This document shows, in pieces, positions 21,293-43,660 of a DNA stretch of 64,000 nucleotides (positions are counted from its first letter, which is position 1; every line of letters starts with the position of its first letter). The position numbers and the translations under genes are program-made. The notes under the pieces are model-generated. The model was not told where the DNA came from. It did not search any database and saw only the letters and a program-made list of their open reading frames with translations. The stretch is from Lentilactobacillus curieae (GTDB taxonomy: Bacteria > Bacillota > Bacilli > Lactobacillales > Lactobacillaceae): positions 1 through 64,000 of the forward strand of contig NZ_CP018906.1 of assembly GCF_000785105.2 (NCBI RefSeq). Direction: 5' to 3'.

Positions 21293-21329
21293 AGAAACGC
21301 AACCAAGAAATTTCTTGATTGCGTTTCTT
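21291..21329. terminator. Bidirectional terminator
   Basis: Long stem AAGAAACGCAA.CAAGAAA/TTTCTTG.TTGCGTTTCTT between convergent genes. Confidence 0.9.
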
Positions 21330-21338
21330 CAATTATAT

Positions 21339-22664
21339 TTACTTAGTGTAATCCACTGACTTGGTTTCCTTTGTCAAAAGTAAAGCAACGATTGAGACCA
21401 AACTCATAAATCCTAGATAATAACCAACTGCGTGGATCCCCCATTGTCCAACTAACCAAGATGCAATAGTTGGGGCAAACGCAGCACCAACAATAGCGGA
21501 CATATTGTAAGCAATTCCAGCACCTGAATACCTAGTACTTGTTGGGAAGAGTTCAGGCAACATTGCCCCAACTGGGCCATAGATCACGCCCATTGCCAAG
21601 AAACCAACTACCAAGAAGAATAAAGTTCCAACAACGTTTTGGTGTCCTTGGAAAAAGAATGGAAATACAAACGAGAATACGAAGATGGCTGCAGTTCCTG
21701 CAAGCAACACTGTTCTTCTACCGAATCTATCTGACAACATTGACGAATAAACAATCATTCCAGCAAACACAACGATTGATCCCATCAAGAACATCAAGAA
21801 TTCACGACTATCAAATCCAAGTACGGCAGTTCCATAACTCAATGACCAAGTTGAAAGTAGAAAGAAGAACGTGTAGGAAACAGCCATCACAAATGTTCCT
21901 TGAAGGATTTGTTTCCAGCTCTTAGTAAATACTTGTGCTAAAGGTGCTTTCTTAACGTTATCCCGTTGTTGAGCCAAACGGAATAATGGAGTTTCTTGCA
22001 TCTTTCTTCTAACCCAAAGACCAAACACAACCAAAACGGCTGAAGCAACGAATGGTACTCGCCAACCAAATTCTGCCATTTGTGATTTAGTCAATACGGT
22101 TTCCAAAATAACGTATAAACCATTACTCAAGAAGAATCCAATTGGAGCACCCAATTCAGTGAACGAACCAAATAGTGCCCGCTTACCCTTTGGAGCGTTC
22201 TCAGTGGCAACTAAAACGGCCCCTGACCATTCACCACCAAGACCAATGCCTTGAGTAAATCTTGCTAAACATAGAAGTAAAATTGCAGTCATTCCCAAAG
22301 TTCTGTAACCGGGAAGAAAACCAATGACAACTGTAGATAACCCCATCATCAGCAATGAGACAACTAATGCCCGCTTACGACCTAACTTATCGCCAAAGTG
22401 ACCAAATAGTAGCGACCCTAGAGGGCGAGCTACAAACGCAACTCCGAATGTCAGTAAACTAAGGATCATTGCGATTGTTGGGGTTACTGATGGGAAAAAG
22501 ACGTTTGGAAAATATGTTGCTGCGGCAGTACCGTATGCATAAAAGTCAAAAAATTCAATTGCGGTTCCAATCATAGATGCCATAATGACAGTTTTAACCG
22601 GATCTCGTTCCATTTTGGCAACTTTTGCTTCTGTTAAAGAATATGTATTTGATGTTTCTTCCAT
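21339..22664 (-). CDS. MHS-family MFS transporter
   Basis: 441 residues, 12 TM segments, metabolite:H+ symporter (MHS) type: SMIGTAIEFFDFYAYG near TM1, the loop 2-3 motif FGHFGDKLGRKRAL, GIGLGGEWSGAVLVATENAP in TM5, and MLPELFPTSTRYSGAGIAYN. Members import shikimate, proline/betaine, alpha-ketoglutarate or related compounds. ATG at 22664 follows AGGAGTGGAG. The gene has a roughly 265-nt leader with a short Ile-rich ORF, three hairpins and an intrinsic terminator, so expression probably rises when Ile-tRNA is scarce; branched-chain amino or keto acids are a reasonable substrate guess. Confidence 0.88.
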   Translation of the reverse strand: MEETSNTYSLTEAKVAKMERDPVKTVIMASMIGTAIEFFDFYAYGTAAATYFPNVFFPSVTPTIAMILSLLTFGVAFVARPLGSLLFGHFGDKLGRKRALVVSLLMMGLSTVVIGFLPGYRTLGMTAILLLCLARFTQGIGLGGEWSGAVLVATENAPKGKRALFGSFTELGAPIGFFLSNGLYVILETVLTKSQMAEFGWRVPFVASAVLVVFGLWVRRKMQETPLFRLAQQRDNVKKAPLAQVFTKSWKQILQGTFVMAVSYTFFFLLSTWSLSYGTAVLGFDSREFLMFLMGSIVVFAGMIVYSSMLSDRFGRRTVLLAGTAAIFVFSFVFPFFFQGHQNVVGTLFFLVVGFLAMGVIYGPVGAMLPELFPTSTRYSGAGIAYNMSAIVGAAFAPTIASWLVGQWGIHAVGYYLGFMSLVSIVALLLTKETKSVDYTK

Positions 22665-22762
22665 TTGCTCCACTCCTATTCAATCAAAACCAGTAAATTC
22701 TACCAATAATTGCAGTCTCATTCATAATTAAGGGAAGTTTGTCACCTCCTTAAAAATAAAAA

Positions 22763-22795
22763 AACACCAAGGACCTTAAGACAGTCCTTGGTGTT
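22763..22795 (-). terminator. Attenuator terminator of MHS transporter leader
   Basis: Perfect twelve-pair stem AACACCAAGGAC/GTCCTTGGTGTT followed on the minus strand by a T7 run, upstream of the coding start. Confidence 0.88.
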
Positions 22796-22800
22796 AAATA

Positions 22801-22903
22801 ACCAATTCTGCCCGCTTGCTTGCGGGCACATCAATTCGCCCGCGCATTAAATAATAATAATTACGCGGGTAATAATGGTGTTCAATTTAAATGTTGAATT
22901 GGT
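22801..22903 (-). promoter_or_regulatory. Attenuation region with mutually exclusive hairpins
   Basis: In transcript order: CCCGCG (22864-22869) can pair with CGCGGG (22839-22844), enclosing the Ile codons and stop of the leader ORF. GCGGGC next to it can instead pair with GCCCGC (22810-22815), which otherwise forms a hairpin with GCGGGC (22822-22827). ACCAATTC (22896-22903) and GAATTGGT (22801-22808) are complementary and bracket the region. This is the layout of ribosome-mediated attenuation; the exact switch is inferred. Confidence 0.7.
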
Positions 22904-22906
22904 CAT
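22847..22906 (-). CDS. Ile-rich leader peptide (19 aa)
   Basis: Short ORF starting at ATG 22906 behind GAGGG with 6-nt spacing, ending in RVIIII and then TAA; six of 19 codons are Ile (all ATT), and four of them are consecutive just before the stop. It lies between a promoter (22937-22965) and the attenuator terminator of the MHS transporter gene. Such codon runs make a ribosome stall when the cognate charged tRNA is limiting. An ATG two codons upstream (22912) touches the ribosome site and is less likely. Confidence 0.75.
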   Translation of the reverse strand: MTNSTFKLNTIITRVIIII

Positions 22907-22936
22907 TTTCATCCCTCTTTTCACGAATTGTATAGA

Positions 22937-22965
22937 ATACTATCACGGCTAGTATTAAAAGTAAA
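22937..22965 (-). promoter_or_regulatory. Promoter of the MHS transporter leader
   Basis: Minus-strand TTTACT, 17-bp spacer, TAGTAT, about 30 nt upstream of the leader ORF. Confidence 0.55.
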
Positions 22966-23081
22966 TAAAAAAATGAAAGTTTTTCAAATTTTATTATTAA
23001 AAACAAAGTCACTTTCTACATATTTAGACCTTGATTGCGATATTATAATTACAGTAAATATATTTTAAAGGAGTTTTAATT

Positions 23082-23369
23082 ATGAAAGTCATCAACGTTG
23101 AACTGTCAGTAATTCCAGGTAAACAGGCTGCCTACGAGGCTTTTATTGCCGATCTAGTTGCTGGCTCAAGTAGCGAAGCTGGCAACATTAGTTACCACCA
23201 CTACAAGGATGTCGATTCAAAAACAGATTATGAAATCATTGAGCATTGGAAAGATGCTGACGCTGTTGAATTCCACAACAACACTCCCCACTTTCAAAAG
23301 TTCTTATCTGGAATCGGTGACTTTCTAACTAAGGATCCGGTTATCATCCGAATGGATTATGACGAATAG
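23082..23369 (+). CDS. Antibiotic biosynthesis monooxygenase (ABM) domain protein
   Basis: 95-residue ferredoxin-like fold protein: VELSVIPGKQAAYEAFIADLVAGSSSEAGNISYHHYKD and YEIIEHWKDADAVEFHNNTPHFQKF are typical of YgiN/HmoB-like ABM proteins (quinol or heme-related oxygenases). RBS AAGGAG. Role unknown. Confidence 0.88.
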   Translation: MKVINVELSVIPGKQAAYEAFIADLVAGSSSEAGNISYHHYKDVDSKTDYEIIEHWKDADAVEFHNNTPHFQKFLSGIGDFLTKDPVIIRMDYDE

Positions 23370-23450
23370 TCAGCTTTAAAATCTGGATGGTACCGATCAG
23401 CACCAAGAGTGTTACAATCTTCATAATTAATTTTTACAGGAGGTGAATAA

Positions 23451-43379: not shown

Positions 43380-43660
43380 CATAAAAAAAGTCCCTCTAGT
43401 TACAAAAATAGTAACTAAAGGGACGACGAATCGTGGTACCACCCTGTTTCGCAACCTGACTAAGTCAAATTGCCTCATCAGCACAATAATGCTAGGGATG
43501 GTAACGGATCCTGCCGTGACCACCGCGTTAACGATGATCCATTTTTCAGAGTTCATCTTCATTTTCATTGCTATTACCGGTTCTCACCAATCCCGGCTCT
43601 CTTTAAACAGTCTTGGAAAACTACTCTTCTCTTCATGACTTGGTTTGTTAAATTATTATA
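43380..43660 (-). promoter_or_regulatory. T-box riboswitch, probably Met-specific
   Basis: Minus-strand leader of the aminotransferase/metQNI operon. The T-box core AGGGTGGTACCACG lies at 43432-43445, followed by the terminator (43383-43424). In Stem I, AGAGTAG and GAACTCT arms bracket a specifier loop where ATG (43554-43556) precedes AACTCT, as expected for Met. The promoter upstream is TTGATT, 16-bp spacer, TATGAT (43662-43689). Confidence 0.88.

Follow-up and report, generated by a model that had tools for sequence, protein, structure and literature searches.

The window, a stretch of 64,000 nt of Lentilactobacillus curieae (contig NZ_CP018906.1, positions 1 to 64,000), carries on its minus strand a gene for an MHS-like MFS transporter of 441 aa (21339..22664, ATG at 22664), matching TIGR00883 and the Pfam families Sugar_tr and MFS_1. 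The match to TIGR00883 (metabolite/H+ symporter) covers positions 1-399 of 400 with an E-value of 6.9e-123, but its 410.6 bits do not reach the curated cut-off of 443.45, and MHS-like therefore denotes the best match only. The MHS-type label had been given to the gene in a previous sequence-only reading. A search for a PDB relative gave no useful hint of the substrate, as it returned nine remote matches of MFS type.

The region upstream of the gene (22664-22965, all features on the minus strand) opens with a promoter-like site read by eye (22937..22965), composed of a -35 hexamer TTTACT (22965-22960), a 17-nt spacer and a -10 hexamer TAGTAT (22942-22937). The site is weak and was absent from the output of a consensus scan; better hexamers are found by eye at the same position in relatives, for example TTGACA-N18-TATAGT in L066. 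The promoter proposed earlier is thus retained as a weak, promoter-like site. A Shine-Dalgarno-like GAGGG (22913..22917) precedes a leader ORF of 19 codons (22847..22906; ATG at 22906, stop at 22849-22847) encoding MTNSTFKLNTIITRVIIII, whose 3' end reads CGC GTA ATT ATT ATT ATT TAA (RVIIII; codons 16-19 are all ATT). The leader contains six Ile codons, every one of them ATT. The ORF, its own ribosome site and its RVIIII end, all claimed earlier, can be read directly in the sequence.

Within and downstream of this ORF, we defined seven segments, named 0 and A to F. Segment 0 is the leader start (22896..22906), which pairs with D' ahead of the terminator, according to the minimum-energy fold and to covariation. 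Segment A (CCCGCG, codons 13-15, 22864..22869) pairs with B in the minimum-energy fold. Segment B (GCGGGC, 22838..22843) lies directly 3' of the leader stop and pairs with C (TGCCCGC, 22822..22828), the partner of either B or D. Specifically, the sequences are GCGGGC for B (22843-22838), GCCCGC for C (22827-22822) and GCGGGC for D (22815-22810), which leaves C two possible partners and bears out the claim of GC-rich segments with mutually exclusive pairings. D (GCGGGCA) and D' (GAATTGGTTATT) together span 22797..22815, and their partners are C, segment 0 or E, the D:E helix being the antiterminator. The intrinsic terminator (22763..22795) is formed by E (22795-22783), a 7-nt loop and F (22775-22763), followed by a T-run. 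Its stem comprises 13 pairs; the 12 pairs announced by the sequence-only reading are there, all Watson-Crick, and the stem holds one G-U pair in addition.

Two features extend that reading: the pairing of the leader start with the pre-terminator segment in the minimum-energy fold, and an SD-like AGGAGGTGA (22742..22750) located just 3' of the terminator, without a clear ORF. An SD-like motif occurs within the first 45 nt past the terminator in 36 of 44 loci, compared to a mean of 8.2 in 300 block shuffles, none of which was as high, and its site precedes the real start codon of the transporter. A conserved small ORF 3' of the terminator was considered and rejected, since the motif recurs and start codons and peptides do not. 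A TACATA motif noticed by eye before the gene was also dropped (2 loci vs 0.8 in shuffles; ACATA, 6 vs 3.2). The 302-nt stretch has a folding energy of -95.8 kcal/mol; 100 shuffles averaged -62.6 (sd 4.7), and not one of them was as good (z -7.1). The element observed in the window is genuine and beyond chance.

To follow the element in relatives, we gathered 80 orthologous loci with the transporter, 53 non-actinobacterial and 27 actinobacterial by title. A leader ORF containing Ile codons, pairing segments and a terminator precede the gene in 44 of the 53 non-actinobacterial loci, with titles including Lentilactobacillus, Secundilactobacillus, Paucilactobacillus, Liquorilactobacillus, Agrilactobacillus, Loigolactobacillus, Limosilactobacillus, Ligilactobacillus and Sporolactobacillus. 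Among the others, five show no leader (L005, L006, L036, L038, L040), in three (L017, L020, L048) the contig ends 165-296 nt upstream of the gene, and one (L033) has other sequence upstream. The genome of L033 (G021, of the window's genus) carries a leader at one contig end (L148) and the transporter on another contig behind different upstream sequence; the two may have been parted by an insertion. Moreover, a 2.1-kb stretch with the transporter, the leader and a small monooxygenase-like gene is 95.8% identical between the window (21307-23420) and locus L053 (2245-4358), on a contig titled Lactiplantibacillus xiangfangensis; nothing else is common to the two within the 6.6 kb compared, and the stretch may have been transferred as a unit or may reflect an assembly issue.

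Locus L053, which encodes the window's own peptide, was omitted from the alignment A1 and from the swap, geometry and folding tests, for which the set of 44 leaders consists of the window and 43 loci. The leader peptides vary widely (MTTNTNILIIIISAIIN, MKKTNLTLNANIVVVRVIVII, MMFAEKTSQLSNIIIIRIII) and retain Ile, which accounts for 267 of 826 residues (32%), compared with 56 Val and 53 Leu; some leaders hold several Val codons. The Ile codons are ATT in 231 cases, ATC in 35 and ATA in one. An Ile codon lies 18-45 nt 5' of segment B in 42 of the 44 leaders, and in L011 and L012 the Ile codons are merely 2-12 nt from B. Hence the expectation that relatives would keep an Ile-rich leader within drifting sequence is borne out by 44 of 53 non-actinobacterial loci. 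Runs of ATT come cheaply in AT-rich DNA, and the ORF might accordingly be a chance one in an AT-rich 5' UTR ahead of an ordinary terminator; the recurrence of the leader before those orthologues and the covariation of leader and terminator segments described below make this explanation practically negligible.

Covariation was assessed on A1, which holds 33 compact leaders of 45 (11 longer ones form A2, outside the pair counting), with 500 shuffles as control. The terminator helix E:F is paired in 95.8% of the cells, with 64 double-change cells; the antiterminator D:E in 94.8%, with 12; C:D in 98.3%, with 12; and 0:D' in 80.7%, with 28 and, at one column pair, six pair types. For each of these four helices the cells paired, the double-change cells and the covariation score were unmatched in the 500 shuffles (0/500). 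Other measures are reached by shuffles: the number of 0:D' pairs with a double change in 85 of 500, and the pair types in 126 (0:D'), 114 (C:D) and 82 (E:F) of 500. B:C covaries weakly (93.9% of cells paired, 2 double-change cells, reached by 36 of 500 shuffles); few double changes may be expected there if C must fit both B and D. The register of A:B, read by eye, differs between species.

In addition, we carried out a register-free swap test on the 44 leaders, in which duplex energies of own and swapped segments were compared. For each of 0:D', B:C, C:D and D:E, none of 10000 permutations was as good as the real pairing. The own partner was the single best of 44 in 9 cases for 0:D', 7 for B:C, 13 for C:D and 3 for D:E. 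Neither the shuffle nor the swap control corrects fully for relatedness. All together, four of the five helices change with compensation, as had been anticipated for a functional attenuator, and the conserved antiterminator D:E is exclusive with the terminator E:F.

We also weighed a different kind of control, namely a T-box or some other riboswitch, for tRNA or for a metabolite, acting on the gene, with the small ORF playing no part. T-boxes bind tRNA directly, and they do serve this genome: one lies before a brnQ gene (L220 2934-3178, minus strand) and another, in the window itself (43416-43645, minus strand), before aminotransferase and methionine-type ABC transporter genes (names by eye). 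The leader, however, holds no Rfam family at gathering score and no match to RF00230, and the peptides retain Ile as the DNA changes, so that we consider this explanation very improbable. With E-values up to 5, the leader gave eight Rfam matches, all far below their gathering scores and rejected, the best being Ysr276 (E 0.0035, 17.7 bits vs 100). A scan of 20 orthologous loci first taken as leaderless for a T-box or other Rfam element yielded only two tRNAs; six of these loci (L050, L051, L061, L064, L065, L076), as well as L052, proved to have a leader ORF.

These belong to the actinobacterial orthologues, where 7 of 27 genes have a leader rich in branched-chain codons in front. This is a lower bound: 17 loci were read (7 with a leader ORF, 10 without a recognised one), the other 10 were assessed through the covariance model R1 described below and an ORF filter, and that filter had missed five of the seven leaders later recognised. 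In all four loci titled Eggerthellaceae or Ellagibacter (L061, L064, L065, L076), an R1 match lies directly upstream of the gene (E 0.0017-0.013). Their leaders, read by eye, are MNLLVTLISISNVIS, MNLLVTLISITSVIS (twice) and MHTIRIMSLII (with an upstream TTG as start codon it would be longer); by eye, all four also show a terminator and GC-rich segments B, C and D, and a complement of the 0:D' type is present in L061 and L076. ORFs containing Ile codons were also seen in the two Pseudoclavibacter loci, L050 (MMARKTSFVASTRIIIPSHSSAE) and L051, and in the Bifidobacterium locus L052 (MMKATRIITAIIRIITKPSMAE); here complementary stretches around the ribosome site take the place of the B/C/D layout, again by eye. 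The presence of such leaders outside Lactobacillales may reflect common descent, transfer or convergence. A candidate ORF also lies at -465 in L054.

Starting from the 33 MHS leaders, we built R1 and searched 397 Lactobacillaceae genomes with E-values up to 0.01. Matches were found in 86 of the 397 genomes and in 16 of 40 genera. From about 130 matches, 90 were read; the remaining 40 include five with E below 1e-4. The first gene 3' of the match encodes the MHS-like transporter in 43 cases, including the window itself, and these are not independent because R1 was built from MHS leaders. The other targets are brnQ-like (16), ilvD (11) and FAH-like genes (8, with brnQ next in 7), followed by ApbE-like (2), LDH-like dehydrogenase (2), beta-glucoside PTS (1), YkvI-like carrier (1) and EIIC (1) genes; five matches have no identified gene (L134, L148, L162, L171, L186), L134 and L148 being at contig ends. 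A brnQ, ilvD or FAH-like gene thus follows 35 of the 47 non-MHS matches read.

Representative products score over the cut-offs for IlvD (TIGR00110), BrnQ (TIGR00796) and the PTS (TIGR01995), and EIIC over that of Pfam; the ApbE and LDH examples score under theirs. FAH-like and YkvI-like are labels given by eye, and their examples had no match in NCBIfam at 1e-20 or in Pfam at 1e-5. The FAH-like gene lies between leader and brnQ in L173, L174, L175, L181, L182, L183 and L185, the example assayed being that of L173. In L163 and L164, the leader precedes the LDH-like dehydrogenase gene, and an SD-like motif after the terminator is followed by a minimal ATG AAA TAA frame. One stretch (L037 839-1043 and 2698-2902; G080:C44 at 7771, 9332 and 11191) carries three successive leaders, which precede the YkvI-like carrier gene, a further MFS-like gene (so labelled by eye) and the MHS gene.

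The composition of the leaders varies with the target. In ilvD leaders (206 residues) there are 47 Ile, 37 Leu and 32 Val; in brnQ-type leaders (335 residues) there are 116 Ile, 7 Leu and 19 Val, and the MHS leaders resemble the latter. The swap test, applied to 11 ilvD leaders and to 19 of 24 brnQ/FAH leaders (five were dropped, as no C:D hairpin was detected), gave for ilvD and brnQ/FAH, respectively, 0 and 0 of 10000 for 0:D', 2 and 0 for B:C, 0 and 0 for C:D, and 48 and 364 for D:E. In the window's genus, ilvD is present in 5 of 24 genomes, in each of which an R1 match lies directly upstream of one ilvD copy; a second copy, without an R1 match, is found in three of the five. A close MHS gene (at least 69% identity) occurs in 11 of the 24 genomes, all with at least one R1 match. 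A search at the level of the order (395 genomes) returned 10 genomes with a match, nine of the same family and one outside it (E 4.3e-4). Genes of Ile metabolism, namely ilvD and brnQ, are thus among the targets of R1, and the MHS gene is linked to them by association only.

The gene neighbourhood was also inspected. An acetolactate-synthase-like (ilvB-like) gene is divergent from the MHS gene in L016, L025, L028, L031, L032, L034 and L066, all titled Liquorilactobacillus; the eighth locus so titled, L048, ends before that point. In L229 (G206), ilvB, ilvC, ilvA, an ABC ATPase gene (by eye), ilvD and an SBF-family transporter gene lie on the minus strand, the MHS gene adjoins ilvB on the plus strand, and on the ilvB side a leader-like ORF with NVIVLVVLVIIIMRV was seen by eye. 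The MHS gene of L231 diverges, by eye, from ilvB- and ilvC-like genes, with ilvD and an SBF-like gene farther away. The SBF-family gene adjoins ilvD in both (L229 504-1508, minus strand, by Pfam; L231 4009-4980, by eye), and its product may, at a guess, also carry a 2-oxo acid. In the window's own genome, we found no match to ilvD, one branched-chain aminotransferase gene and two brnQ genes. Within the genus, a T-box precedes brnQ in 4 of the 8 brnQ loci scanned (L218, L220, L221, L222); in other genera, brnQ has the leader-peptide attenuator instead.

Shared regulation and gene neighbourhood support a putative role of the transporter in Ile supply. Most likely it imports isoleucine or a precursor such as 3-methyl-2-oxopentanoate, where we infer both substrate and direction; this oxo acid would be usable because the genome has a branched-chain aminotransferase and lacks a match to ilvD. 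The two brnQ genes already present in the genome count against this reading. The attenuator could be real and the substrate nevertheless not branched-chain, Ile shortage serving as a general starvation cue for the import of another nutrient. This is consistent with the few R1 matches before ApbE-like, beta-glucoside PTS and EIIC genes and with the diverse metabolites carried, judging by their names, by relatives in the best-matching families. We regard it as unlikely in view of the 35 of 47 non-MHS matches that precede a brnQ, ilvD or FAH-like gene, the ilvB-like neighbour in seven loci and the branched-chain-codon-rich leaders before Actinomycetota orthologues.

The leader conservation, the compensating helices and the occurrence of the same RNA before ilvD and brnQ support the layout of ribosome-mediated attenuation first proposed for the window. 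We put at roughly 85% the probability that the element is a ribosome-mediated attenuator of the his type, which senses charged tRNA-Ile (along with tRNA-Val in some relatives) and induces the MHS-like importer when Ile is short. In this model, when Ile is plentiful the ribosome would clear the leader, 0 would pair with D' and C with D, and E:F would terminate transcription before the transporter gene; these pairings are supported by covariation, and we infer their effect on termination. When Ile is short, a ribosome stalled on the Ile codons would cover A, and segment 0 would be covered either directly or by a second ribosome waiting at the start codon; B:C could then form and free D, and D:E would presumably disrupt the terminator. 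This simple picture is complicated by the 0:D' helix, which had no place in the model of the sequence-only reading.

We therefore folded the 44 leader transcripts to the end of E at equilibrium, with ribosome footprints masked and any hindrance of 0:D' by a ribosome inside its loop ignored. The mean number of expected D:E pairs was 0.72 in free RNA, 3.01 with one ribosome at the first control Ile codon and 0.99 with the ribosome at the stop codon; stalling thus favours the antiterminator on average (stall vs stop, Wilcoxon p 2e-5). At least three D:E pairs were expected in 22 of 44 leaders with the single stall and in 6 of 44 at the stop position. In the window leader, 0:D' remains closed with a single stalled ribosome, so that the expected D:E pairs stay at 0.0; covering segment 0 too gave 4.6. 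With a second ribosome on the start codon, the means were 6.09 (stall) and 5.62 (stop plus initiating ribosome), with at least three pairs in 37 and 38 of 44 leaders, respectively, and stall and stop no longer differed (Wilcoxon p 0.44). We take 0:D' to belong to the switch and the classical attenuation picture, within this folding model, to be incomplete for about half of the leaders.

These results bear on a further possibility, that occupancy of the leader start drives the switch: initiating or queued ribosomes would keep 0 off D', and translation traffic, not the masking of A, would decide. The 0:D' helix covaries in MHS leaders, the swap test supports it for the ilvD and brnQ-type leaders too, and covering segment 0 alone raised the expected D:E pairs from 0.7 to 5.7. 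However, a ribosome at the stop codon with an initiating one yields as much D:E as a stalled ribosome with a queued one, so that at equilibrium occupancy alone cannot separate starvation from plenty; this mechanism appears possible and rather doubtful. Returning to the his-like attenuator, we tentatively suggest a wider class, with more probability against it than for it: seven-segment leaders (0, A-F) in Lactobacillaceae, Sporolactobacillus and Eggerthellaceae, whose first codons would mimic the 5' arm of the terminator and sequester the antiterminator strand; the sensor would then be the presence of ribosomes, a stalled one or the queue behind it, on the start region. Such a class would mark an unrecognised family of isoleucine-linked MHS-like importers.

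With this element, an uncharacterised transporter clade gains a testable role in isoleucine supply; within a single genome, branched-chain amino acid genes, among which the MHS gene is counted by association, are preceded by both kinds of leader, peptide attenuator and T-box; and the covarying leader-start helix offers a way to test how translation initiation contributes to attenuation. In the open-access literature searched, we found no description of a leader or regulon for this transporter, nor of a leader-peptide attenuator for brnQ of Lactobacillaceae.

Among known systems, the closest in layout is the his attenuator, in which B:C is a further alternative pairing. As described for Escherichia coli and Salmonella (PMC10989985), it has AB, CD and EF stems and the alternative DE; the element presented here shares with that description a leader ORF in which one codon is repeated in a row, a series of three stems of which the last is the terminator, and the alternative D:E, the arrangement of A:B, C:D and E:F against B:C and D:E being that of his. 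The two are likened by layout only, and they differ in the codon (Ile, not His), the phyla, the extra covarying 0:D' helix and the control of a transporter gene. In Bacillota, Listeria Rli60 and the ilvD leader of Staphylococcus aureus are described as ribosome-mediated attenuators for branched-chain amino acids (PMC5864092, PMC5794164), with leader ORF, terminator and antiterminator and, as found here, a place before ilvD; in these accounts Rli60 is drawn with four segments and both serve biosynthesis genes, whereas here brnQ, MHS and other genes are preceded as well. Predicted leaders of Lactococcus lactis and Streptococcus (PMC6123439) similarly combine in lactic bacteria a peptide rich in branched-chain residues with a terminator, as far as that report describes them before biosynthesis genes. 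For bacilli, leader peptides upstream of hisS-type genes have also been described (PMC2965389), as have T-boxes upstream of LIVCS carriers in lactobacilli (PMC2494555). T-box leaders (RF00230) likewise act by antitermination on amino acid starvation, and one precedes brnQ in the window's genome. Finally, the Corynebacterium glutamicum ilvBNC attenuator, likened here by its description, also has a leader peptide, but differs in its three hairpins and its biosynthetic operon; its anti-antiterminator hairpin is said to shield the translation start (PMC11857589).
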